Shown here one piece after another: positions 9,705 to 41,009 of a stretch of DNA of 42,538 bases. Under the pieces are notes generated by a model that saw only the letters and a list, made by a program, of their open reading frames with translations, was not told the DNA's origin and made no database searches. Made by a program: the position numbers and the translations under genes. The DNA is from a virus: positions 1 through 42,538 of the IMG/VR virus record IMGVR_UViG_3300037585_001111; one strand, 5' to 3'. The stretch's first letter is position 1. Every line of letters starts with the position of its first letter.

Positions 9705-9731
9705 GATACTCCCCTTATAGGGATGAAATGT
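9705..9731 (+). promoter_or_regulatory. Candidate phage promoter or small hairpin before the reductase gene
   Basis: The gap ahead of the reductase contains ACTCCCCTTATAGGGATGA. It ends in a TATAGGGA core identical to the start-site side of T7-type promoters and also forms a weak 4-base stem (TCCC/GGGA). No other + strand gap between 500 and 33000 is clearly longer. A true promoter would need the same block at other late genes, which I see only weakly (around 405-427 and 2008-2030). Confidence 0.22.
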
Positions 9732-19015: not shown

Positions 19016-19353
19016 TGGGCCAAGGAACGACTGGCGCGATGGTGCCAACTCCCGCTGTTATGCCTCCTCAACAAAGTATAGGTCAAGGACTAGGAAGTCC
19101 ATTAGTACCACAAAGAGGTGGATTAGGCCAAGGAACATTTATGCAGCAACACAACATGATGCATAATCAAATGGATATGACTAAGCAAATGCCAGCTCCT
19201 ATGACTCCTATGCTTGCTTCAGCAGGAGGAGTAGGTGCAGCTGTAAGTCAGGGACCAGGTATGTCAGGTATGCAGACTTTAGATATGCAAGCTAATAATT
19301 ATAATCCAATGGCAACTACAAATCAAATTAAACCTGCTGGAGGTGCAAAATAA
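19012..19353 (+). CDS. Gln/Met/Gly-rich hypothetical virion protein
   Basis: This 113-residue, low-complexity protein is rich in Met (about 17), Gln, Gly and Pro, with no clear fold (for example MQQHNMMHNQMDMTKQMPAPM). It overlaps both neighbours (ATGA and TAATG), so it is translated together with the internal virion proteins. I do not recognise it. A disordered linker or scaffold for the internal core is possible. Confidence 0.5.
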   Translation: MMGQGTTGAMVPTPAVMPPQQSIGQGLGSPLVPQRGGLGQGTFMQQHNMMHNQMDMTKQMPAPMTPMLASAGGVGAAVSQGPGMSGMQTLDMQANNYNPMATTNQIKPAGGAK

Positions 19354-22100: not shown

Positions 22101-22103
22101 CAG

Positions 22104-25100: not shown

Positions 25101-25406
25101 GATGGTGAATATATTCCTGCTACTGATTTAGATAGAGCTATTTCTAATGTACGCGCGACAGCTATAAAAGCTAATCCTGAGATAGCAAATTATAATCCAG
25201 TTATGGTAGATACAATGATTGTTAAGAATGCTGGTATAAACTATCAAGCATACTTAGATAGAATACTAAAGAACAAGCCTACAGATATGAGTGATATAGA
25301 TTTCTTAAATGAGAACGATGATTTTAGAATTAGAGCTCAGAATATGGACCCTCAGACTACTCCTTTGTACGAGTTCATGAGAGCAGGTGGTATTAACGCT
25401 ACATAG
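22104..25406 (+). CDS. Virion protein with a SleB-like cell wall hydrolase domain
   Basis: This is a 1100-residue protein. The N-terminus has AMVTKGEFVSPKE, a motif seen at starts of phage tape-measure or internal proteins. Residues about 84-225 look like a Hydrolase_2 / SleB domain: LLIRMAAAEARGEDLTSQAG with E95 as the likely catalytic acid, VALNR, then GAEFFL and KHTFAQHPDY near the end. Such domains cut peptidoglycan; in a virion protein it would open the wall for DNA entry. A charged coiled coil follows (about 590-680, ending in DDDKKGDD), then a basic, Ala-rich part and a soluble C-terminal domain. GGAGAG lies before the ATG. Confidence 0.62.
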   Translation: MKSLTDPTNRDTELAMVTKGEFVSPKETMEIYGPTLAAQRNHGLALRAARNKAFLEGKPIPKIVPPPPEITAMNSGGIMLSDEDKDLLIRMAAAEARGEDLTSQAGVMYVALNRQKANREEHGGDKLHDIIKKKHAFTSTLDPTNSYWYDKKNTDIKTSAEYKKAASILEGILSGEIKDPTNGAEFFLNEELTRQQRKDGKLPGWYDNVKAKKRLGKHTFAQHPDYVEKVTKSIVPSVRGAQNRIIPEYNPGGFVGGLPMEEEEEDPIMNFMKNHQGRLGDVNPEDVAAGIISDEYLLQNSSDSGANSFREANQMQYGDPRQSISMPGAFMGNMTDAQSLRGGNIRPDMMPPGYVPPKPEVIQRTTSPQGGADRIAFNNITSNLDLQVPRSGGLMNAVVPPANAGVGDWIENWKAEVAKYKAIMNNPDMYNRMSPAEKELMISKRKELENKIGESNRAKLTQIPYMDMANPTNRKMYPAADGYDLNNEMPLQSSSEYTPLYQNMFMHGGDGTTGFERDAAIVKNNPLGIFTPENEKAYAEKALEIAQDQLENLDGETTLNPFSANFDFRLLPNPGEVIEERANRALEAKNKALADIAVADEKIKAKNEEEARKDVDRINRRIQSLENAKLNTNSPEAKAALDKEINKQKSLLNDLNDEFNFDDDKKGDDTPTDPYAGTQVDKIVAELAKKNGGRFPANLEDAAAKGKLEDAGRRVNPKSKTWEKAKSFLKDLFGDIFNKKDLGKAIAIYLGARIFGASPNQAGAMAGKYYLARQDKHEANVAAYMKAGKHKPSSIAKFAKTRNLNDLELIGTLVSPTNTYETFYKRLRNGKEIKVMARKYKIGEDGSGWKIQIDDPDNPGKRIWVAFDPTQGFTTDGSRFRSGGDEYTKEVARLQKLGATLVKPELSILDDKGVEKRIFENFNEQKAGVQWGAWLIDNNIPADTGTEMLNMAVTMMKQEKKRDPKKKAGYGSIKPYLDKTFVIVKTEGTGVSGVAFKNADGEYIPATDLDRAISNVRATAIKANPEIANYNPVMVDTMIVKNAGINYQAYLDRILKNKPTDMSDIDFLNENDDFRIRAQNMDPQTTPLYEFMRAGGINAT

Positions 25407-25419
25407 AATGGAGTCATAA

Positions 25420-28400
25420 ATGGCAGAAATAGAAGAACAAGACTTCCTACAATCTATAATTGATTACAAACCTAATATGATTGGAGTTATGGAAGCTGTT
25501 GACGGTGATACTGTTATTCACCCTGACATAGATAAGCCTGTTAGACTTGAAGGCTATGATACACAAGAAGTACCTAAGTGGATTGAAGGTGAATATAAAG
25601 CTGGTACTGCAGGTGGTGAAACAGAAGCTAATGTATTAACTCGTCTTGCAAATGAGATGGGTTATACTGAACTAAGGTTACGTCGTGATAGTCGCGGTAG
25701 ACCGATAATAGATAGTACTAAGAAGAGATACTTAGGGGATCTATATAATGACAAAGGTCAATCATGGAAACGTAAGTTACTTAGTGAAGGTATACAGAAT
25801 CCTACTAAATATACATCTCAAGAAAATAGAATATTCTTTGAATTAGAACAACAAAGAAGACAAGAAGAGTTTTCAGCAGGTCTATATGAAGAAGATGAAT
25901 GGTCTCGTGCAAGAGAAGATATACTAGCTGCGTTAGATAGAGAAGGGTATAGGAAAGCAGGCATAAAGCTTATAGCTCAAGATGAAAGAGAGTTAAAGTA
26001 CATGAGAGATATGGGGCTAGGTAATTACTTTACTGATGCTGAAGTTGTATCTCGAAGTGGTGATAGAACTCTTCTCAATAAAGCTTTAGATCCTACAAAA
26101 GATACTTGGAATAAAACCTGGGTAGGCGTAAGAGAAGCATCGTTTGGTGTTGTTGAAGCGTTCGGTGATCTAACACATTGGGATGCTGTTTCACAAATAG
26201 GTGAGATGGGAGTTGAAAGAGCACGTAGACAAGTTGAACCTTATGCTGAGTCTATACAGTCTTATAAAGATGTAGATGGTTTTTATAGCGGTTTAGAATA
26301 CTTTACTAATATGTTAGCTATGTCTGTACCTTACATGGGTATAACAGCAGCTGCTTACTTTGCTGCTCCTGCTACTATGGGAGCATCTCTAGCAATACCT
26401 TCATCATTGTATGCTGGTCAAACTTATAATGAGATGGACGATAAGAATAAGAATGTTGGCGTTGCAGCTATATCAGGTGTAACTCAGATGGCATTAGATA
26501 TGCTGGGTCTTAGATATATTATGAAGTCTCCTATAGCTAGTAAAGAGTTATTTCAAAAAGCTTATAAAGAACTAGTGAATAAAGGTATGGCTCCAGCTCA
26601 AGCTAGACAAGAAATAGGTAGAGCAACAAGAGTATCTTTAGCTAAGTTTGCAGGTGATGCAGCTAATGAAGCATCTAAGCAGTTAGCTGCTAAACAAGTA
26701 TTCATAGACTTAATTAAGAGACAAGCTAAATCTGGTACTATGGAAAGTGTTACTGAAGGACTACAAGAAGCTACAGCTTATCTTGCAGCACACCATAAAG
26801 ATATTGGTGAAGGTGTAATAAACATGGAAGAGCTAGTCTCTCGTACTACAGAAGGTATGGTTGCAGGCGCTGTGTTAGGTGGTGGTATAGCAACAATGGG
26901 TGGTGTACAGAACTATGCTGGCTGGACTGATGTTAAGTATAGATTAGCACCTGCTCATGAGAAAGATTTATCTACTGCTTCTATGTTATCAGAGTTAGAA
27001 GCTAAGTCTAAAGAAGGAATGAAGTCTAATGAAGAGAATGCTGCTGATGCAGCTGCAAGGCATGAGACGTACAAGAGAGCTGGCGGATATGATACTTTAT
27101 ATAGTGAACCTGAACATCTTATAGTTAGGACTGATGAAGAATTAGCTCGTCGTAAGGAGCAAGGTCTTTTCGAAGAGGCTAAAGAAAGGTTTATGAATCC
27201 TCTAGGATTATTTCAAGGTTCTGTTCCTAATGCTATAAGTAATTCTGATGCTATACAGTATAGAGCATTAAGAAGATTAAGAGACTTACTTGGTGGTGTA
27301 CTACAAAGAGTGTATGATGGTGAAAACTTCATGTCAACTAAGCATCATGCTGTTGCTATATATAAGAATATGGTTGCTCCAGATAAAATGTTCTTTAAAG
27401 AAATGGGAGAAACTGGTAGACTTAATATGAAAGCAAGAGAAAGAGCTAGTCATAATCTAATAAACTTTACTAAGAAGTATGCTGGAAATAGTAAGGTTCC
27501 TCGATCTGAAGAAGAGATAGATAAACATTATGAGAAGACTGTACCTAAAGATTTACCTAATAGAACTAATTTAATAAAGCATGCTAAGCTTATAGAATTA
27601 CTTTCTAATAAACTACGTAGAGATCAGGTAGCTGCTGGTGCTAAGATGGGATATATTCCTAACTACTTATTTAGATTTAAAGCTCCGAATAAGCGTGCCA
27701 TATATAAAGATAAAGCAGAGTTTCAGAAGTTACTTCAAGAAGAATATAACTATACTCCTGATGCAGCTAAGAAAAGTACTGATGAGTTAATAGATAATCA
27801 TGAAGTATATGATCTAGACTCTGCAACGTTTAGTGTTACTAACCAAGGTATTGTACCTTCTGCTCATAGAAAGAGATCATTAAACCTATCAGAGAATCCT
27901 AAGTTTGATAAGTTTATGGATCAAGATATATACAATAATATTAGTCAATCATCTAAACAAGCTGCTAGATTTATAGGACATCGTAAGTTTATAGGTGAGA
28001 ACGCTAAGATTATAAATACTTTACTTCATGAAGCTGAATACGAAGATGGCGCTCCTAGAGCGAAAGTAAACAAGATAGCTAGACTAGTTAAAGATGTACT
28101 TGATTCAGACTCAGGTAACTATAACAGACCTACCACAGAGATGGGTAAGAAACTTATGAGGTTGCAAAGAAACTTCTTAACACTAAGTACCTTTGCATCA
28201 CTACCGTTAGCTGCTATATCATCTTCAGTTGAGTTAGGTCTTGTAACTAAAGGCTTGACAGCTGATGAAATATTTAGTACTAAGAAAGGTAAAGATGGAC
28301 AGCACTTAGGATTAAGAGGTATAGGTAGAGAGTTAGGTAAATCTATATGGGATGGAACTAAAGAGATAGCAGACTTAGGTACTCAAAGATCTTCTGATGA

Positions 28401-29502
28401 TATATTCTCTTGGGGTCAGCAAAGACTTCGAGAGTTAGGTCTATATGATTGGTCAGTTGGTGCGGCTACAGTTACAGGTGTTACTGAAACTAATGCAGCA
28501 CAACAGATGTACTTCGAAGCTTTCTTTAAATGGAATGGTTTAACTGGTATTACTAACTTACCTAGAGCTATGAGAGCTTCTTTATTCGGAGACTTCTTAT
28601 ATAATAGAGTAGAAGAAATACATTTACATCGTCAAAGTGGAGACCCTAAGACAAGATCTGTACAAGAAGCTGAGCAACAACTACGTGATTTAGGTGTTCG
28701 TATAAGCGGAGACAATAATATTGTTGATCTAATGTTTGATTCAGATCTAATAGCTACTGGTAAAGACTTAACAGCTCTTAATCCTACTGGAGAAGGAACT
28801 ATATCTATTAAGTTGACAGGAAATAATCCACTGGCAATTGATCGTGTTAAGTTTAAAGAAGAAATGCTAGGTAAGCAAGTACAAGAAGCTACCTTTAATT
28901 TTATTAGAGATGCTGTTGCATTACCTGATGCTGCCAACAGACCATTGTTCTATCAAGATCCTCGGTTTGCTTTGTTCTTTCAGTTTCAAGGTTTTATAGC
29001 TACATTTACAGCTAACCATATACCTAAGTTATGGGGTGAGTACATTAAACGAGGTACTCCAGCATTAAAGTATAATGCATTTGCTACTATGTCAACTATG
29101 ATTATGCTTAGCTTTGCTTCACAGTATCTTAAAGATCTACTTAAATACGGAGAGTCTACTCCTTACTTAGATGATGCTGAGTATTATCAGAGAGGTATAA
29201 GATCTTCTGGATTATTAGGTACAAGTGAAAGGATTATAGATCAGTTCATGCCTTTGTACGATTATAGATCTGGATCAGGTCCTAGTGCTTGGGTGTTTGA
29301 TACAACAACAAGTGAGGCTCCTGCTTTAGGCTATGCTAAAAGAACGTTAGGTGCTATGCGCAAATTCTCTGAAGGTGATGTAGGAGAATCAGTAAGACTA
29401 GGTACTAAGCTACTTCCTGTTGTTGCACCGTTTAATCAGATCGGTAATCAATGGGGTAAATTCGCAGATAGATGGAACTTTAACAATAGTGGAATAGAAT
29501 AA
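25420..29502 (+). CDS. gp16-like DNA ejection protein with an N-terminal SNase-like nuclease domain
   Basis: This is a 1360-residue protein. Residues about 20-125 match staphylococcal nuclease: D28-G-D30-T, R42-L-E-G-Y-D47-T-Q-E50, and R103-Y-L-G-D-L-Y...G...LLSEG. These positions correspond to the Ca2+-binding Asp residues and the catalytic Arg-Glu-Arg of the family. The rest looks like the largest internal core protein of T7-like phages: a Gly/Ala hydrophobic stretch (PYMGITAAAYFAAPATMGAS, about 305-325), long charged helices, and a C-terminal part with QDPRFALFFQFQGFIATFTA and a Gly/Leu helix, typical of gp16-type proteins that form the trans-envelope channel. It is followed by a TAATG overlap with the next gene. 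The nuclease assignment is from the residue pattern; activity is not shown. Confidence 0.62.
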   Translation: MAEIEEQDFLQSIIDYKPNMIGVMEAVDGDTVIHPDIDKPVRLEGYDTQEVPKWIEGEYKAGTAGGETEANVLTRLANEMGYTELRLRRDSRGRPIIDSTKKRYLGDLYNDKGQSWKRKLLSEGIQNPTKYTSQENRIFFELEQQRRQEEFSAGLYEEDEWSRAREDILAALDREGYRKAGIKLIAQDERELKYMRDMGLGNYFTDAEVVSRSGDRTLLNKALDPTKDTWNKTWVGVREASFGVVEAFGDLTHWDAVSQIGEMGVERARRQVEPYAESIQSYKDVDGFYSGLEYFTNMLAMSVPYMGITAAAYFAAPATMGASLAIPSSLYAGQTYNEMDDKNKNVGVAAISGVTQMALDMLGLRYIMKSPIASKELFQKAYKELVNKGMAPAQARQEIGRATRVSLAKFAGDAANEASKQLAAKQVFIDLIKRQAKSGTMESVTEGLQEATAYLAAHHKDIGEGVINMEELVSRTTEGMVAGAVLGGGIATMGGVQNYAGWTDVKYRLAPAHEKDLSTASMLSELEAKSKEGMKSNEENAADAAARHETYKRAGGYDTLYSEPEHLIVRTDEELARRKEQGLFEEAKERFMNPLGLFQGSVPNAISNSDAIQYRALRRLRDLLGGVLQRVYDGENFMSTKHHAVAIYKNMVAPDKMFFKEMGETGRLNMKARERASHNLINFTKKYAGNSKVPRSEEEIDKHYEKTVPKDLPNRTNLIKHAKLIELLSNKLRRDQVAAGAKMGYIPNYLFRFKAPNKRAIYKDKAEFQKLLQEEYNYTPDAAKKSTDELIDNHEVYDLDSATFSVTNQGIVPSAHRKRSLNLSENPKFDKFMDQDIYNNISQSSKQAARFIGHRKFIGENAKIINTLLHEAEYEDGAPRAKVNKIARLVKDVLDSDSGNYNRPTTEMGKKLMRLQRNFLTLSTFASLPLAAISSSVELGLVTKGLTADEIFSTKKGKDGQHLGLRGIGRELGKSIWDGTKEIADLGTQRSSDDIFSWGQQRLRELGLYDWSVGAATVTGVTETNAAQQMYFEAFFKWNGLTGITNLPRAMRASLFGDFLYNRVEEIHLHRQSGDPKTRSVQEAEQQLRDLGVRISGDNNIVDLMFDSDLIATGKDLTALNPTGEGTISIKLTGNNPLAIDRVKFKEEMLGKQVQEATFNFIRDAVALPDAANRPLFYQDPRFALFFQFQGFIATFTANHIPKLWGEYIKRGTPALKYNAFATMSTMIMLSFASQYLKDLLKYGESTPYLDDAEYYQRGIRSSGLLGTSERIIDQFMPLYDYRSGSGPSAWVFDTTTSEAPALGYAKRTLGAMRKFSEGDVGESVRLGTKLLPVVAPFNQIGNQWGKFADRWNFNNSGIE

Positions 29503-32500
29503 TGTCAAAATTTAATCGTGGATCCAGGTCGACCCGTTCTCAACCAATAGCGAGAGGTGGAGATGCTGAAAAAGCATTAAGAGATAAAACAGCTAGAGCA
29601 TTTGTAGGCGAACAGTTAAGCCAACAAGATCCTGAAGTAAGAGCTTTCTTTGAGAGTATTATAGGTATAACTCCTGAAGAGATAGAACAAGCTCAAGTAG
29701 AAGGTGCTAATATAGATAAGAACTTTAGAGGAGATACCTTTACTGGTACTCCTGATGTAAGGTTCACTGACGAAGATGTGAATGAAGGTGTAGTTCCAGA
29801 TGAGCTATACCGACCAAATATAAAGGAGCGTCAAGCAGCTTCAAGAGCTGGGGAGACTCCTAACTATCAGTTAAGACGTCCAGAAGAAAAGCCTACTAAG
29901 AGTAGATACTTTGCTGGTAAGGAGTTTAAGAGTGCTTCTAGTTACGATGGTGGTTTAACGAATCGTCTTAAGAAAGGATTAATTAATATACACACTAATG
30001 GATTGTTTAGACTAGGTACTAATCCAGTAGGTCAGACATATCCTGATGCTGCTAAGGTTGGTAAAGGTACTAACATTGATGGCGTGTATACTCCACCACC
30101 GCAACAGTCAGTTAGTCCTAAGATACAGCAGGCTGCAGTACAAGAGCAAACTGGAAGTAATAAGTCTGGTGACTATGATCTTAAGTTAGTTAGAGCTATC
30201 ATGAAAGGTGGAGGTCTAGCTTACAATAAAGATGTAGCTGAAGGATCTCATATGCCTTCACAAGACTACGATAGAGTAGCTTTACTTGTAACTGAGAATG
30301 CTATTGCTGATAGAACCTATTTAGCTGTAGATGATTTTGAAGTTGATCCTATTACTGGTGAGAAAATAACTGATGAGACTAGAGAACAATTGCTTGCACG
30401 AGAGCAAGTAGCTGCAGAAGAGAAGCGTTTAACAACAGGTGTTTCAGTTACTATGGCTGCAGGTAATGGAGCTTTAGGTAATCAGATACACCAAGAGTGG
30501 TTACGTCTTAATCCTGATCTTGAAAAGACTAAACTAACTAGAGAAGAAGCAGAGACATTAGGTTCAGGTTATAAAGAACTATATGCTAATCTAAATCCTG
30601 ACATACTACAACGTGTTGAGACTAAGTTTGAACAAACAGAGTTTAGACTACTTGATAGCGCTGTACCTGATCTTATAGCAGGTCAGTCTATACGTCAAGC
30701 ACTATTCCCTAAGCAGGTTATAAAACCACTAACAGCTCCTATGTTCTCTGGTACTATTAGTGAAGGAGATATGGCTAACTTTACTAAGGTAGTATTAGGT
30801 CCTGTAGGTGAGAAGCAAGTAAAAGAAATACTTAAAGCATTTAAAAACTTAGGATCTGTTGGTCATGTAGTTGATAAACGTAGGAATAAGATACTTCTTT
30901 CAACATTACTTAGACACTTAAATAATAATGATGTTATGTCTTGGGAAGCTGAGATACATGGTATGGGTGAGACTAAAAATAAAGAGTATCTTGCTAAAGA
31001 GAAGTTTGATACTAGACAGATGCTTTTAGATGGTTATGTATACAACGATGAAATAGGTTATTACACACACCCTAATGAGAGTTATCCTGATATACATCCA
31101 AGCTATATGTATAATGCTAGTGAGGTTATGAACAACTCATTAGATAGTTATGCGCAACAAGTTCATGCTATACAAGCAGCAAGGAATCAAATAAGTTATT
31201 TAACATTTGCTGCCTTAGGGTATAACCAACGTCTTATACCTCAGCAAACTCACTTTAATCCTGTTACATCTAAAGTAACTAGGTATGTAACTAGAGCTGC
31301 TAGACCTGACGTAATAAAACCTGCGTCTATAGAAGAGAATAACTTACGACAGATGTATGCAGCTATATTAGTTGATGGTACAGCTAAGAAACTAGATAGA
31401 GTAAGAGAAGAGAAGCTAAGAGCAGCAACTCCAAAGTTAAGAGAGTGGGGTAATATATTAAGAGAGCTACAGCAAGTAAGTGATAGCGACTACGAAATGG
31501 TTGCTGATGCTATAGCTAATAAGATACCTCTCAATGATCCTGCGTGGCCTGTTGATGCAGCTAATAGAGTTGCTGGTAGTCTTCAGTTAGATCCACAACA
31601 GCATGGTGAACTCATGGCTGCTATTAAAGCTAAAGGTGGCTTTGAAGGTTTAGTATACATAGATGGTTTAATAGACTTTGCTAACTACATGGATGCAAGG
31701 ACAGCTGGTAAGAACTTTACTACATTCTTTAATGCTTATCCTGATGGTATCACTAATGGTATTGCATCTAATGCTGTACAGATGGGTCATAGACAGACAG
31801 CTAAACGTACTGGTATCATAAGAGAGAATGATGTAGGTGATTTACTTGATGACGGCGATATTAGAGATGCTGTTGCTAGAACTTCTCTTGCATCTATAGG
31901 TGACGGCTGGAATAATATTAAACAAGATAGTGAAGAAGGTATCACCATGACTTCACACTTGAACACAGTAGCTAATGAACTATATGGTTTTAAAGACTTA
32001 AATAAAAGTACTACCATGGTTTATGGTTATGGTATGGAGTTGCAGAGTTTCTGGATTAAGTTTAGAGATAGTCTTAACTTAAAGTTAGAATATGATAACC
32101 CAGATTTAAAACACGCATATGAATACCTGATGAGTAAAGAAGCTTTTGACAATGATTTAGACGCTTTATCTGTGATTTTAAATGAGAAGTATTCTGTATC
32201 GCTTGAAGACACTATGTCTACTGATGCGATACAATCAAGACGATTAGTACGTGCAGCTGCTGGTATGCATATAGCGTTAGACGAGAACTTTAGAATTGAC
32301 TTGCCACTAGGTAAAGGTGCTTATGGTAGGTATGTATCTGAAGGTCAAGCTACTGCTGATGTAACTACATTTAATATATATGAACCAGAAGGTTATGATG
32401 CTGAAGGTAACGTACTTCCTGATCCAGAAACTGGTAAGCCTAGACTTAAGAAGCAGGCTAGAAAATCAGTACACTATAAGAGACGTATGACTGCAGCTGC

Positions 32501-33350
32501 TGCTAAACCTGCTGGAGGTGGTAAGACCTTTGGTAAGTATGCTTATGGTGGTGCTTTACCTGGACCTATACAAGCGCTTGACGCTGTTACAATTGTAAAG
32601 ACTGCAACAGGTAAATCATGGAACGATATATCTAATGCAGGTGGTGGTAACCCTTACATGTTTAGTATATATGATGCTGTTAAAGTAACTGCAGGTAATA
32701 TGCACGTAGTATTAGATGAGATAAATAATAACTGGTTTAACGAGTCTATGAAGTACTCTTATCTACAAGCTATGAGAGATGCTACTGTAGCTAACATGAA
32801 AAAGTTTAGACAGAACAAAGCTAAAGTTCTTAAAGAGATGGGTGATCAACCTATACCTATAATTAAAGCTGGATACATGCATCAGGTACTACAACCTACA
32901 GAGTTTTATGTTCAGAAGGATGGTAGTAAGAAACCTAACTTTGCTAAGTCACCATTAACTAAACAGTTAAGTAAAATGGCTGCTAAACCTGAAGGTAAAG
33001 TAGATGCGGTTACTGGAAGACCTATAACTACAGACAGTCAAGCGTTCTTCAATCAAGTAAGAGACTTTGCTAGAGGAATGTATGCTGCTCTTAAAAAAGT
33101 AGGATTTGATTATCGTATTAATGAAGAAGACTACGGTCTTCCAGAATTAGAAGAGTTTGCAGCCAATACAACTTACAGACAATACTATGCTTTTGTTGAA
33201 GAGTTCTACAGACTATTAGACTTTGAGAGCCGTATGAACAAGATGATAGCTAAGACAAATGCTAATAAGAAGTTGTTAGCTGAAGAGCTAAAGAAGAATG
33301 GTCATAAGTCAAGAAGTGGACGTATGGTACCTAGACAATACGAACTTTAA
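29502..33350 (+). CDS. Candidate virion RNA polymerase (divergent single-subunit RNAP)
   Basis: The 1282-residue protein shows, in order, the four landmarks of T7-family RNA polymerases. (1) YNQRL at 574-578 then FNP at 585-587 aligns with the T7 'DWRGRVY...MFNPQ' block. (2) FANYM...FNAYPDGITNGIASNAVQMG aligns with motif A, the metal-binding Asp being D748. (3) K835-STTM-VYG-Y843-G aligns with motif B (K-x3-M-x3-YG), but Lys replaces the usual Arg four residues before. (4) PGPIQALDAVTIV then SIY1057-D1058-AVKV aligns with motif C, with Tyr for His before the second catalytic Asp. About 550 N-terminal residues have no clear match. It is the last gene of the internal-virion block, so it may be packaged and injected as N4 vRNAP is; N4's is about 3500 residues. 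Found by eye, not by search. Confidence 0.6.
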   Translation: MSKFNRGSRSTRSQPIARGGDAEKALRDKTARAFVGEQLSQQDPEVRAFFESIIGITPEEIEQAQVEGANIDKNFRGDTFTGTPDVRFTDEDVNEGVVPDELYRPNIKERQAASRAGETPNYQLRRPEEKPTKSRYFAGKEFKSASSYDGGLTNRLKKGLINIHTNGLFRLGTNPVGQTYPDAAKVGKGTNIDGVYTPPPQQSVSPKIQQAAVQEQTGSNKSGDYDLKLVRAIMKGGGLAYNKDVAEGSHMPSQDYDRVALLVTENAIADRTYLAVDDFEVDPITGEKITDETREQLLAREQVAAEEKRLTTGVSVTMAAGNGALGNQIHQEWLRLNPDLEKTKLTREEAETLGSGYKELYANLNPDILQRVETKFEQTEFRLLDSAVPDLIAGQSIRQALFPKQVIKPLTAPMFSGTISEGDMANFTKVVLGPVGEKQVKEILKAFKNLGSVGHVVDKRRNKILLSTLLRHLNNNDVMSWEAEIHGMGETKNKEYLAKEKFDTRQMLLDGYVYNDEIGYYTHPNESYPDIHPSYMYNASEVMNNSLDSYAQQVHAIQAARNQISYLTFAALGYNQRLIPQQTHFNPVTSKVTRYVTRAARPDVIKPASIEENNLRQMYAAILVDGTAKKLDRVREEKLRAATPKLREWGNILRELQQVSDSDYEMVADAIANKIPLNDPAWPVDAANRVAGSLQLDPQQHGELMAAIKAKGGFEGLVYIDGLIDFANYMDARTAGKNFTTFFNAYPDGITNGIASNAVQMGHRQTAKRTGIIRENDVGDLLDDGDIRDAVARTSLASIGDGWNNIKQDSEEGITMTSHLNTVANELYGFKDLNKSTTMVYGYGMELQSFWIKFRDSLNLKLEYDNPDLKHAYEYLMSKEAFDNDLDALSVILNEKYSVSLEDTMSTDAIQSRRLVRAAAGMHIALDENFRIDLPLGKGAYGRYVSEGQATADVTTFNIYEPEGYDAEGNVLPDPETGKPRLKKQARKSVHYKRRMTAAAAKPAGGGKTFGKYAYGGALPGPIQALDAVTIVKTATGKSWNDISNAGGGNPYMFSIYDAVKVTAGNMHVVLDEINNNWFNESMKYSYLQAMRDATVANMKKFRQNKAKVLKEMGDQPIPIIKAGYMHQVLQPTEFYVQKDGSKKPNFAKSPLTKQLSKMAAKPEGKVDAVTGRPITTDSQAFFNQVRDFARGMYAALKKVGFDYRINEEDYGLPELEEFAANTTYRQYYAFVEEFYRLLDFESRMNKMIAKTNANKKLLAEELKKNGHKSRSGRMVPRQYEL

Positions 33351-33403
33351 AAAAAAATAACCCCGATAGAAATCCACATGGAAATCTATTGGGGTTTTTT
33401 ATT
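33349..33403. terminator. Bidirectional terminator between convergent operons
   Basis: AACCCC (33359-33364) pairs with GGGGTT (33391-33396). The stem continues through ATAGA/TCTAT and TCC/GGA around a 4-base loop, with one 2-base internal mismatch. An A run lies before it (33349-33357) and a T run after it (33395-33400), so it works on both strands. It ends the late + strand unit and the - strand replication unit, whose last stop codon starts at 33405. Confidence 0.88.
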
Positions 33404-33663
33404 TAAAGTAATCCGTTCTTAGCGTATAGTTCTTTTATACCTCTTTCAGCTTCTTTCTTTTTCATAGTCGCATCTTCTTCTGATACACCTGCTTCTAAGT
33501 TTAGCTTATAAGTTATGTCTAGCATTATGTCATTAATTCTAGGTGTATACAATGCATCAGTTGGTATTTCAGGATACTCTTCCTGTAGTTCTACATCATC
33601 TACATCTACTCCTCGTAACGCTAAGTAATTATAATTTATTCTTTCTCCTTCTGTTGTGGACAT
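33403..33663 (-). CDS. Small acidic hypothetical protein
   Basis: This is the 86-residue last gene of the - strand operon, with a perfect AAGGAGGT ribosome binding site 5 bases before the ATG. The product is acidic in the first half (VDVDDVELQEEYPEIPTD) and charged and helical in the second (EEDATMKKKEAERGIKELY). It has no membrane segment. I do not recognise it. Being next to the RNA polymerase gene, it could be a regulator of either polymerase, but nothing in the sequence shows this. Confidence 0.6.
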   Translation of the reverse strand: MSTTEGERINYNYLALRGVDVDDVELQEEYPEIPTDALYTPRINDIMLDITYKLNLEAGVSEEDATMKKKEAERGIKELYAKNGLL

Positions 33664-33675
33664 ATTAACCTCCTT

Positions 33676-35973
33676 TTATGCGAAGAAATAATCAGAATCT
33701 TCTATGCCATTTATACTTAGGCTGCCTAACTCTGGTTGTTCAACGTCTATTTCTTCTTTATCTGTTATTATCTGTTCTTCTATGTAGTTGTAGAAGTTAT
33801 CTACATCGTACATATCTATGAACTTACGTTTAGTGTGAGCAAGTAATAGCTCTACATCACAAGCATGCGTTGAAAAACTATCGTGCACAGCGCCAAACTC
33901 TCCATTCCAATCGTCTATTACGAGTGCCATATGACTAGCGTCCATAGAGTGAACAAAGTTAGGTGATATTCCTGTCATAAATCCTCTTATACTAGGAAGT
34001 TTAGTTGCTACTTGGGCACAGTGTTGTACAACGCCACGTTTATTGTACGTAGTGTATCCACTTATAGTACCTTTAGCTTTACGCTTTTGCATTTGAAAAT
34101 TAGTATACTCTACTGGAAACCCTGATGGAGTTGTCCAGCATAGCTTATCTTTACCATTACCGTATACTAATCTAGATTCATATGAGTTTATAAATTGAAC
34201 TAGCTTACTCAACTCTTCTAGTTCCTCATCTGTCTTATCTTTCTTTATATAAAGTTCTTTCTGTCTGGCGATAACATCTGAATATTCTTTACCTGCTATC
34301 TCTCCCTCTGGAGAAAACTTTACATACTTTCCTATCTCAAATAGAGCTAGCTTCTGTAAGTATGACATAGTACTTAGTGGTCCTGGACATACTTTGTCTA
34401 TTGCTTTGATTAGAATCTTAGCAAACTTGTTACAGTCATCTTGTGTAATACCATATATAGTATGGTAGTCTTCTACTTTAGAATCAAAGAACATGTTCTC
34501 TGCAATCTTACTAGCACCTGCAGAATACGCTCTTGTCATTGATCCGCGTTTAGTTATACCCTTACGTATATGTTTCATAGGCATAGAGTTTAGTATGCTT
34601 TTTAATCTATCATCTTCAGTAAGCTTAATTAACTCTTTAGCTGCCTGCACGTAGAAATCTTTTTGTATTACAGTAGGTATTAACCCAACAAGATCGCCTG
34701 TCTGAGTATCCTTAGACATAGATCCTAAGTGCTGCCAACCGTTGTTGCTACCGTCGATAGGTATAGGTAAATGTGACATGTGTAGTCTATGATCTTTCTT
34801 AGCTTCATGGTAGTCGTACCATTCAACACAACACGCTAAGAATGATACAGTCTTTTCGCATGGTACAAAAGAAGTAGTACGTCCTAATTCAACTATCCAA
34901 TCCATGTTATTGTTTACCCAGTTAACTCTATCTTCTAAAGTCATTTTATCTACAGATATATCTTCTAGTCCTTCTGATTTAAGATAACCTTTATAGTCTT
35001 GCTCAGTCCACTCAGGTATCTCGTCTATCTTGTAGCTTTCGTTATAGCTGACAGCTGTATGCACTGCTAACCAGAATAAACCACTGTCTGTCATTGGCTT
35101 ACCTCTAGCAAACTTCAACATACCTCTAGATAAATCAGATCCTTGAAAGTTTAAGAAGGGTTCTATGTAATAGATTCTACCACGATAATCTGCATCTACG
35201 TATTGGTAAAACACATCATGATCCTTTAGTAGCTTAGCCTTAGATGTAATGAACTTCCATTCCATAACTTTACTACGTCGTTTCATTTCTTTTACATCGT
35301 TATTCTCATAAGGTTCTTCGCGTAAGAACGTACTCTTGCTATTAAGTAATGCGTCATATACTTTTCTATTTATACGCCAGCCAGTTTTCTGTAGCTTATT
35401 CATAGCATTTATATATGGTTGTTTTAGATTTAAGTGATCATCTTTTAACTTATTCTTAATAACTAAATGTCTATCATTCTGTACCATAGAAGTAATAGAC
35501 TTTGGTAACGTAGTTCTTGTAGCTGTTAAGTTAATACGTGTAGTAGCTTCGTGCAAGTCTGCTAACTCGATCCACTTAGGTGTAGCAGATATTATATGGC
35601 TGCTATCTCTTATTCTTGGGTAATATAAATCTATAAAACCACAGTTATAAAAGCCTTCGACAAACAGATCACCTAATCGTAACTCCATAGACCAAGGCAA
35701 CTTATCTCTTTTAAGCAGCCTATGTATATGTTGACCGATTTTAAATGATGTGTTAGTCAATTGTGAAGTACCTGCAGGGCTATCACTTGTATCTTTAGTA
35801 AATAATATTTGTATAGTCTGCAGTGCGGAGTTAACAAATATATCCATGTCTTCTTTATAATTTTTATGTAACTTTAATAATACCCCACCAGAGTTAGCTT
35901 TCGGATTGTTTATATTTATTCCATCCACTTTCTCTAAGAGGTAGCTGGTTACTTGATCTATAGGTTTTGACAT
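33676..35973 (-). CDS. T7-type single-subunit DNA-directed RNA polymerase
   Basis: The 765-residue enzyme transcribes phage genes. Landmarks: DADYRGRIYYIEPFLNFQGSD (T/DxxGR block); PIDGSNNGWQHLGSM with catalytic D407 (motif A); KGITK475-RGSMTRAY483 (motif B); FVHSMDASHMALV and AVHD698-SF (motif C). It is shorter than the T7 enzyme (883), with a reduced N-terminal domain. The frame opens with TTG at 35976, but the ATG at 35973 has GAGG 5 bases upstream and is the better start. It overlaps the deaminase gene by 80 bases. It lies near the end of its operon, unlike T7 gene 1, which is the first major early gene. Confidence 0.93.
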   Translation of the reverse strand: MSKPIDQVTSYLLEKVDGININNPKANSGGVLLKLHKNYKEDMDIFVNSALQTIQILFTKDTSDSPAGTSQLTNTSFKIGQHIHRLLKRDKLPWSMELRLGDLFVEGFYNCGFIDLYYPRIRDSSHIISATPKWIELADLHEATTRINLTATRTTLPKSITSMVQNDRHLVIKNKLKDDHLNLKQPYINAMNKLQKTGWRINRKVYDALLNSKSTFLREEPYENNDVKEMKRRSKVMEWKFITSKAKLLKDHDVFYQYVDADYRGRIYYIEPFLNFQGSDLSRGMLKFARGKPMTDSGLFWLAVHTAVSYNESYKIDEIPEWTEQDYKGYLKSEGLEDISVDKMTLEDRVNWVNNNMDWIVELGRTTSFVPCEKTVSFLACCVEWYDYHEAKKDHRLHMSHLPIPIDGSNNGWQHLGSMSKDTQTGDLVGLIPTVIQKDFYVQAAKELIKLTEDDRLKSILNSMPMKHIRKGITKRGSMTRAYSAGASKIAENMFFDSKVEDYHTIYGITQDDCNKFAKILIKAIDKVCPGPLSTMSYLQKLALFEIGKYVKFSPEGEIAGKEYSDVIARQKELYIKKDKTDEELEELSKLVQFINSYESRLVYGNGKDKLCWTTPSGFPVEYTNFQMQKRKAKGTISGYTTYNKRGVVQHCAQVATKLPSIRGFMTGISPNFVHSMDASHMALVIDDWNGEFGAVHDSFSTHACDVELLLAHTKRKFIDMYDVDNFYNYIEEQIITDKEEIDVEQPELGSLSINGIEDSDYFFA

Positions 35974-36373
35974 CAAGTCCTCTTTCTTTTAAAAATTGTA
36001 GCGCGTAGCTATCATACATCTCGTCGTATACTACTCTAATAATCCCTGCTTGTAGTATTAGTTTAGCGCACTCAATGCAAGGCGAGTGTGTGGTATATAT
36101 TGTAGCTCCTTCAGAGCTGCCACCTGTTTTAGCTAACTTCATAAGCGCATTAGCTTCCGAGTGGATAACTTCAGGTTTAGTTATACCATCAGGATGTCTT
36201 GTGTGATTACACATACCTGTTGGCATACCATTAAACCCTTGCGAAAGCACCTGTCCATGACGGACTATGATGCTTCCAACTTTTATATCGTCATCAAACG
36301 ATAGCTGACTAAACACGTGAGCTACCGTTAAGTATATCTTATCATAACGTTCCTGTTTGGAATTCAAATCCAT
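35894..36373 (-). CDS. dCMP deaminase
   Basis: This 159-residue zinc enzyme converts dCMP to dUMP, feeding dTTP synthesis. Seen: H-S-E-A-N in VIHSEANALMKLAKT (zinc His and proton-shuttle Glu), then HSPCIECAKLILQAG with the two zinc Cys (PCxxC). DDDIKVGSIIVRHGQVLSQGFNGMPTGM before these is the usual first part of the fold. At the annotated ATG the GGAG touches the start codon; the TTG two codons on (36367) has GGAG at 5 bases and may be the true start. The gene overlaps the primase-helicase at one end and the RNA polymerase at the other. Confidence 0.88.
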   Translation of the reverse strand: MDLNSKQERYDKIYLTVAHVFSQLSFDDDIKVGSIIVRHGQVLSQGFNGMPTGMCNHTRHPDGITKPEVIHSEANALMKLAKTGGSSEGATIYTTHSPCIECAKLILQAGIIRVVYDEMYDSYALQFLKERGLDVKTYRSSNQLPLRESGWNKYKQSES

Positions 36374-37970
36374 CTCCTAATTTATTTAACCTTGTTGTAT
36401 TTATATCATACACAGCAGCACCTGCATTTCCTGTTAAACCTGTGAATCTAGATTTTAATACTCTAAACCGTATAGTGTTACGGTCTAAATCATCATCAGC
36501 AACTAGGTTTCTAGCAAAGCTAATTATATCAAATGATATTTGTTTAATAGAACCTGAACCTTTGATGTCGTCAATAGAAGCAAACTTACCTTCTTCAAAT
36601 GATGAAGCACCTGATTGAGACTTACGTAAGTGAGAGATTAATCCAAGCCATACGTTATGTTTCTTTACTATCTTCAGTAAATCAGACATCATCTTATCTA
36701 TAGCTTCATTACCTGATAAACCTTCTGTACCTTCTGATACAGCAATAGTAATATGATCTAGCACTAGATACTTACATCCCATGAGAGCCATATATTCTAT
36801 CTTATCAGTAAGACTTGAATCACCTACAGATCCTTGGTGATCTAATAGTACAAGCCTATCATCGCCAAATACAGCATCGAATCCTACTCTTAACTCTTTA
36901 TCAGTTAAAGGTGGTGGATCCATTACGGGTCTTTGTAACTGCATTGATATAAACTTCTCTGCAGTATCACCTACTGATTCTTCGAGAGATATAAGACCTA
37001 TCTTATCGTTAGTCTTTTCTAGTAAATCAAGTACAATCTCTTTGATTACAGTTGATTTACCTGAGCCTGTACCTGAAGTAAACAGAGTGATCTCACCTTG
37101 TCGTATACCTTTAACTTTACTATTAATTCCATCTAAGCAATCAGGATAGGGTATTGATTCAGTCTCTTGTCTTGATTTAAACTCAGTCCATATATCATCA
37201 CCAACCATTATGCCTGCAGGAGACCACTTCTGTGCTCCCCAGATGGCCTGTAGTATAGACTGAGGGCCATACTTATATAGAGATTCACAAGGATCTTTAC
37301 CTCTAAGAGAGGCTACTTTAACTTTACCTGCGCCTATTATCTTAGCGCATGCATCAAGTGATTTCTTACCTGCTTCATCATTATCTAACATCAATATGAC
37401 CGAGTCGAATTGATTTACCCATTCTCTCTGATCAAGCAGAGCACGAGTTCCTGTTGCAGATGGCAATGAAACTACAGGAAATATTCTGTCTTTATACTGC
37501 GATACGAATGCTTCAGCCACAGCCATACAATCGAGTTCACCTTCTGTTATTACTAAAGTCTTTGAACCAATTGCTTGGGCTTGACCAAATAATTCTGTCT
37601 TCTTAAAGTCTCCGTGTGTACGGAAATCCTTTGGTAGTATTCTTTCTTTGTAAGCTACTACTTGCCCATCCTTAGTATAAGGATAGAAGTGTGAACCCGG
37701 CTTACCATCTTGATTGATCGACATCTTTACATTAAAGTAATCTACTACTTGCTGTGATATCTTTCGTGAAGATATTGGAAAGCTTTTATATGTAGCTATA
37801 TCTTCAATGAATGTAAATGCGGATTCATTATCTTCTTCTATTATATCTTTCATATTATCTTCTTTCTTTTTAGTTGAGTATTGGCATGAGAAGCAGTAAG
37901 CTCCGTCATCATATATAGTGTACGCGTCTGATGAATCGCAGTGCGGACATGCTGTTTGTACATAAGCCAT
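36342..37970 (-). CDS. DNA primase-helicase (T7 gp4-like)
   Basis: The 542-residue protein unwinds DNA and makes primers at the fork. It has an N-terminal C4 zinc ribbon (C8, C11, C26, C29), a TOPRIM primase domain (VITEGELDCMAVAEA, then SVILMLDNDEAGKK), and a RecA-like hexameric helicase. The helicase shows Walker A TSGTGSGKST, LISLEES (H1a), YLVLDHITIAVS (Walker B) and LISHLRKS (H3). The length is close to T7 gp4 (566). The ATG follows directly after the stop of the small basic gene, with a GGA 6 bases upstream. It overlaps the deaminase by 32 bases. Confidence 0.92.
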   Translation of the reverse strand: MAYVQTACPHCDSSDAYTIYDDGAYCFSCQYSTKKKEDNMKDIIEEDNESAFTFIEDIATYKSFPISSRKISQQVVDYFNVKMSINQDGKPGSHFYPYTKDGQVVAYKERILPKDFRTHGDFKKTELFGQAQAIGSKTLVITEGELDCMAVAEAFVSQYKDRIFPVVSLPSATGTRALLDQREWVNQFDSVILMLDNDEAGKKSLDACAKIIGAGKVKVASLRGKDPCESLYKYGPQSILQAIWGAQKWSPAGIMVGDDIWTEFKSRQETESIPYPDCLDGINSKVKGIRQGEITLFTSGTGSGKSTVIKEIVLDLLEKTNDKIGLISLEESVGDTAEKFISMQLQRPVMDPPPLTDKELRVGFDAVFGDDRLVLLDHQGSVGDSSLTDKIEYMALMGCKYLVLDHITIAVSEGTEGLSGNEAIDKMMSDLLKIVKKHNVWLGLISHLRKSQSGASSFEEGKFASIDDIKGSGSIKQISFDIISFARNLVADDDLDRNTIRFRVLKSRFTGLTGNAGAAVYDINTTRLNKLGDGFEFQTGTL

Positions 37971-38159
37971 TTAATTCCATCTTTCTTCTCTGTGTAATCT
38001 CCTTACTCGTCTTTCTTTAGACGCCTTAAGTTTATTACTAATCCTCTTTTGTTTCTTTGATTTAATATTATTATATTCTTCAAGCTCCGTTATGGGAGGC
38101 AACTCTAATCCTGAGAAACTCTTCTCCCTTGCTAACGATTTCTTTGTGTAGTTCGACAT
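37971..38159 (-). CDS. Small basic hypothetical protein
   Basis: I start this gene at the ATG at 38159 (AAGG 6 bases upstream), giving 62 residues; the frame is open to a TTG at 38189. The product, beginning MSNYTKKSLAREKSF, is strongly basic, ending in ASKERRVRRLHREERWN. It could bind nucleic acid. It overlaps the end of the RusA-like gene by 80 bases and touches the primase-helicase start, so it sits in a translationally coupled chain. No family is recognised. Confidence 0.42.
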   Translation of the reverse strand: MSNYTKKSLAREKSFSGLELPPITELEEYNNIKSKKQKRISNKLKASKERRVRRLHREERWN

Positions 38160-38442
38160 AGTATACCTTGTTATCATTAAACTCTTCAAAGATACCTTGA
38201 TACGTATCTAAGATAGGTTTTATTACGTTATCAATGTCAGCTCCTCTATTAGATAAGCCGGCGTTTACAATGAATGAGACCTGATTAGCATCAAATGGCC
38301 AATCAGTTCCCATTAGGTCATCGCGTATCTCATTCTGATACGCAACATATTCAGGACTCTTGAATGTCCTCTTGCCTCTCGCTCCGAACATCCTGTTCGC
38401 AGACAGTGGCTTGGTCTTGAATGTGTTGTCTAACTTCTTCAT
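38080..38442 (-). CDS. RusA-like Holliday junction resolvase
   Basis: The 120-residue protein matches RusA in layout: KPLSANRMFG near the start, SPEYVAYQNEI helix, then GADIDNVIKPILDTYQGIFEEFND (the D-x-DN-x-x-K core with metal-binding Asp) and NDNKVYYVELHKEI. RusA enzymes cut Holliday junctions and branched DNA; here the protein would do the job of T7 endonuclease I (gp3) in resolving replication and packaging intermediates. It overlaps the exonuclease gene upstream by 92 bases and the basic-protein gene downstream. Confidence 0.75.
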   Translation of the reverse strand: MKKLDNTFKTKPLSANRMFGARGKRTFKSPEYVAYQNEIRDDLMGTDWPFDANQVSFIVNAGLSNRGADIDNVIKPILDTYQGIFEEFNDNKVYYVELHKEIVSKGEEFLRIRVASHNGA

Positions 38443-39199
38443 AATGTTTGTTTACTTCCTTAAGTAAATAAGAGTCATCAATCTGTTTTCTAATATCGTC
38501 ATATTCCTTCCATGATTTTAACATAGTTAGTAGTCGAAGACTTATACTTGGATCTCCTGCATTATGTTCTACCCATGCTTTCTCTACGTATTTGTATCGA
38601 TCTTTCATAGGTATGCCATCAAGTATCTTACGAGCTTTAACTTTACCTATACCTTTAATGCCTGGTATGTTATCACCAGAGTCTCCTATTAAACATTGCA
38701 TATGTAAGTTAAGATCAGCTTCGTCATCATTAATAAAGCTATGTTCTTTCTTATTAAAGTTATAATGATTACCTGGTATCTGAAGTAGATCTTTATCTAT
38801 ACCTACTACAAAGTAAGGCATGTCCATTTCTCTAGCTTCATAAGCCCATATAGCTACTAAGTCATCTGCTTCCATATCGTGTGCTTCAATAGCATCCCAC
38901 TTGGAAGTCATGTGTGCATGACCATAGCTTAAGGCTTCTTTTAGATCCTCATCTAGTTCTCTACGATTAGCTTTATACTCTTTGTATAAGTCTTTACGAA
39001 AGTTACCTTTACCTTTAACAGCTACTCGAAGCTTACCCATCATACAGGTAGCCTCTATCTCTGTCATTAGCTTATCGATATTCTTTCGTATATCGTTCTT
39101 CTTCTTTGACGCACACGCAGATCTAAAGTATATAGAGTCTGCATCAACTAAGACTACTGAGTCAGTTGATATAACGTCGTGGTTAGTGGATGTCTGCAT
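38351..39199 (-). CDS. 5'-3' exonuclease (FEN / T7 gp6-like)
   Basis: This 282-residue nuclease removes RNA primers and trims DNA ends. Seen: VVLVDADSIYFR (first metal-binding Asp), KGNFRKDLYKEYKANR, AHDMEADDLVAIWAYEA (acidic cluster), VVGIDKDLLQIPG, and QCLIGDSGDNIPGIKGIGK, the Asp pair followed by the helix-3-turn-helix DNA-binding motif. AAGGA lies 7 bases before the ATG. The gene overlaps the polymerase stop by 17 bases. Confidence 0.9.
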   Translation of the reverse strand: MQTSTNHDVISTDSVVLVDADSIYFRSACASKKKNDIRKNIDKLMTEIEATCMMGKLRVAVKGKGNFRKDLYKEYKANRRELDEDLKEALSYGHAHMTSKWDAIEAHDMEADDLVAIWAYEAREMDMPYFVVGIDKDLLQIPGNHYNFNKKEHSFINDDEADLNLHMQCLIGDSGDNIPGIKGIGKVKARKILDGIPMKDRYKYVEKAWVEHNAGDPSISLRLLTMLKSWKEYDDIRKQIDDSYLLKEVNKHYEEVRQHIQDQATVCEQDVRSERQEDIQES

Positions 39200-41009
39200 A
39201 AGATTTTCCTTTCATATAATCACCACCGTTCATACAGTTAATGTTGAACCACTTTGGTCCTTCAGTAAATGCATCTTGTAATATTTTACCTACTTTATCT
39301 GCATCATCAGGATGCGATGTAAATGCTAGCTCATCATGATAGAAGAGTCGGGGCTTAGCTCTAAGACCTTGACGATCAACCTCATTCATAGCATAGGAGA
39401 GTGCAGCCTTACAGCTGATACCTTCCATAGATTGTAGTAAGTAATTTAAAGTTTGATGTTCAGCAGGGCAGAATACAGGTCTACCATCTACAGCAGGGAA
39501 ATATCCTTCACCTGTACTGTGATTAGTATTATTCCATGTATAACTTAGTTTACGTTTTAATTCATCTAATCCTTTAATAGACTTAGCAAAATCGCTACGC
39601 GCTTGTCTGCCCTTAGCTGCATTCAGTTTACCAGTTAAACTCTGACCTAGCTTTGCATCACCAGCTCCAAATAGATATGCATACAAGAAAGTTTTCGCTT
39701 TATTTCTATCGGTTCTTAGTACATCTGCGTTGCGCTGATGTTGATCACCGTATATAACTTCCTTAGTAAAGTCTGCGTTGTTTACATAATGACATAAACC
39801 TCGCAGCTGATTACCTGATGAGTCAGCTCCAACTAAGACTTCTCCTTCGTCCGCTTTGAATACTTCTCGAAGCTCTTTGCCCCAAGCAGCAGATACCGCA
39901 GGTAGATTAACAATAACCTCGTGCCTTGCGCGGAATGTCGGTGTACCAATAGTCCACATATTACCATGGAGGCGATTATCACGAAGGCACTCAAGCCAAG
40001 TACTAAGTACAGAACGACGGTTCCGAAGTGTATAGTAATCATCAATCATTTCTCCTATCTTACCCATCTTATGTAAAGATGTTGATGTTAATTTAGGACC
40101 AGTAGTTACCCATTGAAATCCTACTTTCTTCTTTTGATACTCATCTGGAACCCAGCCTTTAGTAATCAGCCAGTCTTTAACAAGATCCATAGATCCTAAT
40201 GTAACATCTTCTATTTTATATCTTTGAAATGTGTGACCTGGTGGCATCATATGTGTATCCCAAGCCATTACTTCTTTATCGAAGTATTCACGTAACATTC
40301 TTATAGTAGTTGTTGTATACTCTCCGTTCTTCTTAAACTTAGGAGTTTTAGGTTCTTTATCTATGAATACTTTTCTAGTACCCAATTGAGGTTCTATTTC
40401 GTATTCAATCTCGTTCATACGAATAGTCATATTCATTACTGATTGCTTAGCTTTATCAATATCAAAGTTCCAGCCATCAGTTCTACAACGAGCATTGAAT
40501 TTAGCAGTATCTAATTCTATTGATAAACCCTTTGCTATCAAGGGGTTACGTTCACTAATTAATCTAAATTCTTCTAGTAATTTATCATAAACTTTAGCAT
40601 TCAGTTCAACATCTTGGACACAGTATCTCATCATTTCTTTAGAGTACTCTTCCCAATTATCGAAGTCTATTTTAGAATTATTAATGTGCTCACCCCAGCC
40701 TTTTAAACCGTGCTTATGAGTACGTTTATATCGTAATGTCATACTCATTATCCACGTATCATGGCATCGCTTTGAGTTTAACTTAGTACCATACAGTTTA
40801 TCTATTTGGACGTTGTCGAATCCGATGATGTTGTGCCCGATAAGTAGTTCGGCGTTTTCGAGGAGCCTGACTCCATCAATGATGTTCGCATACCTAACAC
40901 TTTCATCTGCAAATTTGTATATAGTACCCGTTTCAAGGTTCTTAGCAACAAGGCAATGTATTTTTGTAGCATCTAGTCCATCCGTTTCTATATCATAACA
41001 TAGTTTCAT
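39183..41009 (-). CDS. Family A DNA polymerase with 3'-5' exonuclease
   Basis: This 608-residue replicative polymerase is T7 gp5-like (704 in T7). The exonuclease domain has CYDIETDG (D6, E8), LIGHNIIGFDN and CVQDVELNAKVYDKL. The polymerase domain has motif A VGADSSGNQLRGL, motif B RNKAKTFLYAYLFGAGD, and motif C FYHDELAF. Motif B carries Tyr at the place of E. coli Pol I Phe762, as in T7. AAAGGA lies 6 bases before the ATG. The thioredoxin-binding loop of T7 cannot be judged by eye. Confidence 0.95.
   Translation of the reverse strand: MKLCYDIETDGLDATKIHCLVAKNLETGTIYKFADESVRYANIIDGVRLLENAELLIGHNIIGFDNVQIDKLYGTKLNSKRCHDTWIMSMTLRYKRTHKHGLKGWGEHINNSKIDFDNWEEYSKEMMRYCVQDVELNAKVYDKLLEEFRLISERNPLIAKGLSIELDTAKFNARCRTDGWNFDIDKAKQSVMNMTIRMNEIEYEIEPQLGTRKVFIDKEPKTPKFKKNGEYTTTTIRMLREYFDKEVMAWDTHMMPPGHTFQRYKIEDVTLGSMDLVKDWLITKGWVPDEYQKKKVGFQWVTTGPKLTSTSLHKMGKIGEMIDDYYTLRNRRSVLSTWLECLRDNRLHGNMWTIGTPTFRARHEVIVNLPAVSAAWGKELREVFKADEGEVLVGADSSGNQLRGLCHYVNNADFTKEVIYGDQHQRNADVLRTDRNKAKTFLYAYLFGAGDAKLGQSLTGKLNAAKGRQARSDFAKSIKGLDELKRKLSYTWNNTNHSTGEGYFPAVDGRPVFCPAEHQTLNYLLQSMEGISCKAALSYAMNEVDRQGLRAKPRLFYHDELAFTSHPDDADKVGKILQDAFTEGPKWFNINCMNGGDYMKGKSYADIH

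Follow-up and report, generated by a model that had tools for sequence, protein, structure and literature searches.

A candidate compact virion RNA polymerase and a single-chain T7-type RNA polymerase in a CRP-7-type podovirus suggest an N4-like transcription relay

The injected virion RNA polymerase (vRNAP) of the N4 type has been described as a feature of the Schitoviridae alone (PMC12633501), and according to a 2015 survey it is accompanied by a two-part second RNA polymerase (RNAP), or, in two cases, by one that is split further (PMC4496689). The late genes of N4 need the host sigma70 (PMC4496689), and the absence of cysteines from the vRNAPs of LUZ7 and LIT1 has been tied to the passage of these proteins through tail and periplasm (PMC3715699). 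In the phiKMV-like phages, the genome organisation of which is similar to the one considered here, the host RNAP serves the early genes and a T7-type RNAP the rest (PMC5537680). The DNA analysed in this study, referred to as the window, is a linear fragment of 42.5 kb (42,538 nucleotides; IMG/VR record, labelled G000), the best isolate match of which is not an N4-like phage; its closest isolate is Roseobacter phage CRP-7 (MK613349, 58.1 kb), which represents a new podovirus group with an RNAP less than 25% identical to those of the Autographivirinae (PMC6918029).

The window belongs to the CRP-7-type group by virtue of a common gene order and homologous DNA polymerase, RNAP, primase and capsid-tail genes: in CRP-7, as in the window, some 9.7 kb of small genes, the DNA polymerase, exonuclease, primase and RNAP (gp30) genes and two small genes are met by the convergent genes gp33 to gp35. 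The features of the window on which the analysis draws are as follows.

9705-9721, + strand: T7-type promoter-like site GATACTCCCCTTATAGG, with one mismatch to the motif of the clade, ahead of the ribonucleotide reductase gene (9754-11523)
18323-33350, + strand: presumed ejection cassette of six consecutive genes, including the candidate vRNAP; 5000 residues, no cysteine
22104-25406, + strand: 1100-aa cysteine-free protein with a cell-wall hydrolase domain (Pfam PF07486, E 5e-8), probable T7 gp16-like ejection protein
25420-29502, + strand: 1360-aa cysteine-free protein, probable ejection protein
29502-33350, + strand: candidate virion (injected) RNAP, 1282 aa, last gene of the late operon and convergent with the RNAP operon
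33351-33402: terminator-like inverted repeat at the convergent junction, with T runs on both strands (AAAAACCCC...GGGGTTATTTTTTT; judged by eye)
33403-33663, - strand: 86-aa ORF with no assigned function, last of the replication/RNAP operon, kept in all ten records compared
33676-35973, - strand: T7-type single-chain DNA-dependent RNAP, 765 aa (Pfam PF00940, E 3.6e-53; PHROG 414, E 4.7e-98)
35894-36373, - strand: dCMP deaminase (PHROG 174, E 1e-43; Pfam PF00383)
36342-37970, - strand: DNA primase-helicase (PHROG 239, E 2.4e-149)
38080-38442, - strand: RusA-like Holliday junction resolvase (Pfam PF05866, E 4.5e-5; PHROG 34, E 4.7e-6)
38351-39199, - strand: 5'-3' exonuclease (Pfam PF02739, E 2.7e-18)
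39183-41009, - strand: DNA polymerase family A with 3'-5' exonuclease (PHROG 17, E 1.2e-92; Pfam PF00476)

A preliminary description of this DNA had placed the T7-type RNAP gene near the far end of the replication operon, and this was borne out: the gene is next to last, behind those for DNA polymerase, exonuclease, RusA, primase-helicase and deaminase, with just the 86-aa ORF after it, and it occupies the same position in CRP-7 and in the relatives G001 to G011. The right edge of the window is not the genome start, as the window is a fragment with the early region beyond that edge. Two relatives that overlap the window DNA, G001 (34.5 kb, RNAP 99% identical) and G002, reach through the early region to the divergent terminase gene, and in G001 the early region extends about 7 kb further upstream, up to the point at which terminase and early genes diverge. 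The RNAP ORF spans 33676-35976 with its first ATG at 35973, and its product, which contains nine cysteines, is 35% identical to the CRP-7 RNAP over the full length. Residues D407, K475, Y483 and H697-D698, which we take to correspond to D537, K631, Y639 and H811-D812 of the T7 enzyme (T7 numbering), are present and conserved. With a Pfam RNA_pol domain and intact catalytic residues, this gene product is, by its sequence, an intact single-chain T7-type RNAP. The deaminase ORF and the start of the RNAP ORF overlap in different frames by 80 nt (35894-35973), unusually long for a coupled start; the arrangement is also found in G001, G002 and G008, and clade B has no deaminase at that place. The inverted repeat at the junction has a bulged stem, was not called by a simple scan, and recurs in G001 and, in a different sequence, in G003. 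In the 60-kb relatives the interval between the T7-type RNAP gene and the convergent junction holds a 625-aa cysteine-rich protein with no assigned function (G010 26528-28405, G011 25118-26992, in RNAP-forward orientation).

On its own, the 1282-aa protein at the end of the late operon gave no useful match in Pfam, in PHROGs or by tblastn against 50,697 phages, and no RNAP model by HMMER; an HMM of eight rows of its family found no match among PDB sequences, and the homologue of G003 used as query returned only known contigs. RNAP-like motifs were first seen in an alignment with relatives. When a profile of 12 homologues was compared by hhalign with a profile of N4 gp50 and ten Schitoviridae vRNAPs, a match was obtained at Prob 97.9% (E 5.8e-13, 572 columns), with controls (the reversed alignment and two neighbouring proteins) at no more than 0.3%, and with only 3% in a direct profile comparison with the T7-type RNAP of the same phage. 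The motifs GR...NPxxxK, DGxTNG, K-x3-M-x3-YG and SIDA...IYDA of the candidate lie in register with GR...NPQxxK, DGxTNG, YG and SIDA/GDG...FDG/HDA of the vRNAPs, so that motifs GR, A, B and C appear in their vRNAP-specific form, with DGxTNG of motif A and a SIDA/FDG-like motif C in common; across the candidate family motif C reads [IV]Q/H-x-x-DA...IYDA. Catalytic residues (D748, K835, Y843 and D1058 in the window protein, with R577 in the GR motif) are kept in most homologues, down to 20-30% identity, and the motif letters are degraded in the most distant ones (CRP-7, G010 and G011). The homologue of one relative matches PHROG 2206, 'virion RNA polymerase', in the motif C region (E 0.0012). An AlphaFold2 model of residues 360-1282 was of moderate confidence (mean pLDDT 63, pTM 0.57), and all of the best 50 PDB matches listed by Foldseek for it are single-subunit RNAPs, with E values of 6e-8 for the mitochondrial RNAP, 4.5e-7 for T7 and 1.5e-5 for the N4 mini-vRNAP; with a second structure aligner N4 2po4 gave the longest alignment of the matches listed (Z 11.8, 458 residues). 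The giant size of gp50, about 3500 aa with large N- and C-terminal domains, is not shared by the candidate or its relatives (1167-1353 aa), among them CRP-7 gp33, annotated as hypothetical and only 15% identical to the window protein. Judged by sequence profile and predicted fold, the 29502-33350 protein is a second, very divergent and compact single-subunit RNAP of the N4 vRNAP lineage, and on the same grounds the T7-type RNAP is the second of two single-subunit RNAPs encoded by this phage.

The candidate gene closes a run of six + strand genes (230, 113, 915, 1100, 1360 and 1282 aa), none of which specifies a cysteine. Its homologues likewise contain none or one (0-1 across ten homologues; one in G010, none in G011). 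The late operons of N4 and DSS3phi2 end with the vRNAP gene, which faces the early/middle genes head to head, and the same holds in the window. By analogy of gene neighbourhood and lack of cysteine, the 1282-aa protein is probably packed in the virion with the other ejection proteins and then injected. Each of the 1360-aa and 1100-aa neighbours, considered as a vRNAP, was rejected (hhalign Prob 0.2-0.3). The N-terminal part of the former resembles a staphylococcal nuclease domain, and one relative weakly matches Pfam SNase (E 0.01). Cysteine is also lacking, with one exception at most, from the homologues of the three largest cassette proteins in CRP-7 and relatives, and its absence may be a simple marker of ejection cassettes.

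In the early region of G001 five hairpins with exact 8-bp stems and the loop CCAAGA, all on the early strand, begin in the terminase/early divergent region, as against 3.6e-4 expected for the record as a whole. Further loci were collected from relatives found via the terminase gene, bringing the set to 26 instances in ten loci with 11 stem sequences and the loop variants CCAAGC, CCGAGA, CCACGC and CCAAAA. Among 16 distinct hairpins every pair cell is paired (128/128, 100%), six of the eight pairs show changes on both sides, and 31 cells are changed on both sides as against 10.6 +/- 2.7 in shuffles. Most copies are followed at fixed spacing by an ATACATT box, and 23 of 24 hairpins are followed, at a distance of 38-88 nt, by an ATG that has a Shine-Dalgarno sequence. 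The exact pattern of loop, closing pairs and downstream box occurs in just 4 of 2.9 million IMG/VR contigs, all of the window's clade. The predicted single-strand DNA stability of the clade hairpins (-3.5 to -6.5 kcal/mol) compares with -2.7 to -6.1 kcal/mol for those of N4, in which the same kind of scan recovered hairpins before gp1, gp2 and the RNAP1 gene, presumably the known promoters P1-P3. The CCAAGA-loop hairpins are putative promoters for the vRNAP. Searches of clade B, CRP-7 and the 60-kb relatives G010 and G011, all of which carry the vRNAP homologue, did not detect them, and these groups may either have other hairpin forms in too few copies for detection or follow a different early transcription. 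Beside the early hairpins of L080, about 290-650 nt into the divergent region in the early direction, lie some five repeat copies of the type TCCTGAGTATAGACATTAAACTGC.

A second type of element is the sequence TATACTCYCCTTWTAGR, present five times in the 18.5-kb L021 part of G001 against 0.05 expected, a figure that is somewhat circular as the motif was drawn from the same sequences. The sites lie just upstream of the conserved terminase part, shortly after the terminase and within the early region, and two of them, arranged divergently, stand some 9 kb ahead of the RNAP gene; across the clade such T7-like promoters precede the replication/RNAP operon and the late genes. Clade B, with an RNAP about 62% identical, has its own form, TATATACCCCTTAAAGR, at the corresponding places, as would be expected if enzyme and promoter had changed together, and the sites of the clades resemble the T7 class promoter ACTCACTATAGGGAGA (clade A ...ACTCTCCTTATAGG, clade B ...CCCCTTAAAGGGAGA). 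The window site at 9705-9721, with 0.12 expected, is weak alone; G005 of clade B carries a variant of its own, TATATACCCCTTAAAGG, in the same position. We infer that the TATACTCYCCTTWTAGR sites are used by the T7-type RNAP, for which they are predicted promoters. At the head of the replication/RNAP unit of G001, preceded by tRNA-Trp and a strong terminator (L021 3234-3198), a T7-type promoter (15750) is followed 14 nt further by hairpin 5 (15780), an arrangement that would let the first enzyme initiate the unit and the second gain control of it later. In the early region, immediately ahead of the replication/RNAP unit, L021 3245-3318 (G001) and L080 862-935 hold a gene for tRNA-Trp (CCA) with a strong terminator behind it; CRP-7 is reported to carry tRNA-Arg instead. 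In L067 and L068 of clade B the divergent promoter region before the terminase holds a 20-bp inverted repeat with well-separated arms, TTCTATAGAACTCTTACGAT ... ATCGTAAGAGTTCTATAGAA.

From the position of the RNAP gene the preliminary description had argued that something else must transcribe the operon first, and from this an N4-like cascade. The premise is sound, but it is weak by itself, since phiKMV-like phages with a similar layout start from the host RNAP (PMC5537680), and the distal position alone is therefore insufficient for such a cascade. The cascade gains its support from the vRNAP homologue at 29502-33350, from the hairpins before early ORFs in clade relatives and from the promoter scan of the window, which found no phage promoter just before 36373, where one had been named as evidence against it. 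The search for start promoters beyond the right edge, also proposed there, led to the hairpins in the relatives, and sigma70-like sites showed no clear excess over shuffles. As for the notion that the T7-type RNAP would turn to the late genes, these do carry its predicted promoters, but it does not appear to be a late enzyme only, as promoters also lie upstream of its own operon.

The layout shared with phiKMV-like phages (PMC5537680) does lend itself to a scheme in which host sigma70 RNAP reads through the early/replication operon as far as the distal gene for the T7-type RNAP, and this enzyme then transcribes middle and late genes, the vRNAP-like protein being a relic or a structural ejection protein devoid of transcription activity and the hairpins operators or sigma70 promoters. 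Three of the G001 hairpins contain TTGCCC-N17-TACAwT, as such a scheme would have it, but the TTG hexamer is lost where the stem changes (TTACCC, TCACCC, ACACCC) with pairing and loop kept, and the arms vary around a fixed centre, when an operator bound by a dimer would show fixed arms and a free centre. Sigma70-like sites, moreover, are enriched neither in the early region (25 versus 19.7 +/- 4.6 in shuffles) nor in the operon (28 versus 36.8 +/- 6.0), under a sigma70 model that may not be that of the Roseobacter-type host, and most members of the vRNAP homologue family retain their catalytic residues; we consider a host-driven start of this kind rather unlikely. That the hairpins act instead as RNA, as nut-like or operator hairpins to which an antiterminator or regulator binds in an early 5' leader, the promoter being a separate one further upstream, appears quite unlikely. 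An invariant loop on a covarying stem would also suit an RNA-binding protein, and a transcript begun at the T7-type promoter some 14 nt before hairpin 5 would carry this hairpin in its leader, but most hairpins have no T7-like promoter before them, they sit individually before several ORFs at 38-88 nt, and the fixed spacing of ATACATT suits an initiation region better than an RNA element. Lastly, the 29502-33350 product might be an unrelated large internal virion protein with an RNAP match that is a low-information artefact, in keeping with the silence of the window sequence alone in HMMER and tblastn; this is highly improbable, as the profile match with its clean controls, the PHROG 2206 match of a relative and the RNAP-only result of the fold search agree independently.

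We therefore favour a relay of two phage polymerases, in which the compact 1282-aa vRNAP would be packed with the ejection proteins, injected, and initiate at the DNA hairpins ahead of early ORFs, with their 8-bp stem and the loop CCAAGA. One such hairpin, 14 nt downstream of a T7-like promoter, stands at the head of a unit with the replication and RNAP genes at its end, some 9 kb before the RNAP gene. Once made, the T7-type RNAP would recognise TATACTCYCCTTWTAGR and take over its own operon in a positive feedback, and it would also drive the late operon, whose final gene supplies the vRNAP for the next round. With a hairpin start and a takeover from its own promoter, the distal position of the RNAP gene would fit a delayed, self-reinforcing switch. 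Taken as a whole, this N4-like relay from an injected vRNAP to the T7-type RNAP is in our judgement probable, with packaging, injection, hairpin use and the relay itself deduced from the genomes. More tentative is the wider proposal of a CRP-7-type podovirus lineage outside the Schitoviridae in which a compact injected RNAP acting on 8-bp/CCAAGA hairpins hands over to a T7-type RNAP of one chain, which transcribes the late genes as well as its own operon, with host RNAP needed at no stage, and to this we give somewhat less than even credence. The literature searched yielded no description of a vRNAP from a phage of the CRP-7 type. In this marine lineage, one member of which has been isolated (CRP-7, host FZCC0042), a vRNAP of one third the size would represent the enzyme in its minimal form, and the lineage would allow the coevolution of vRNAP and hairpin promoter to be traced and would provide a natural relay of two single-chain RNAPs with two different promoter types.

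Among the known systems, CRP-7 has the same gene order and, in gp33, a homologue of the candidate vRNAP, but its RNAP is just 35% and gp33 just 15% identical to the window proteins, and CCAAGA hairpins were not found in it. The phiKMV-like and Fri1-like Autographiviridae resemble the window in having a single-chain RNAP gene downstream of the replication genes, but their early genes are read by host sigma70 RNAP, and we know of no vRNAP homologue in these phages. T7 shares the catalytic motifs of the window RNAP, but its RNAP gene is promoter-proximal whereas that of the window is distal. The likeness to N4 extends to the vRNAP gene (gp50) at the convergent end of the late operon, to hairpin elements before early ORFs on the early strand, as in the clade relatives of the window, and to a second, T7-like RNAP from early/middle genes. 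On the other hand, the N4 vRNAP has 3500 aa as against 1282 aa, its hairpins have stems of 5-7 bp and loops of 3 nt as against 8 bp and 6 nt in the clade, and its second RNAP is heterodimeric (gp15+gp16) and encoded before the replication genes, whereas that of the window is one chain encoded after them. The window phage is N4-like in its predicted way of working, yet on the features compared it is not a member of the Schitoviridae, as it has neither a vRNAP of that size nor a heterodimeric RNAPII (gp15 + gp16), but a single-chain RNAP of 765 aa. The late genes of N4 rely on host sigma70, whereas those of the window lineage carry predicted promoters for the T7-type RNAP, and both N4 and T7 need the host RNA polymerase, which, on the tentative host-independent reading, the window lineage would not.
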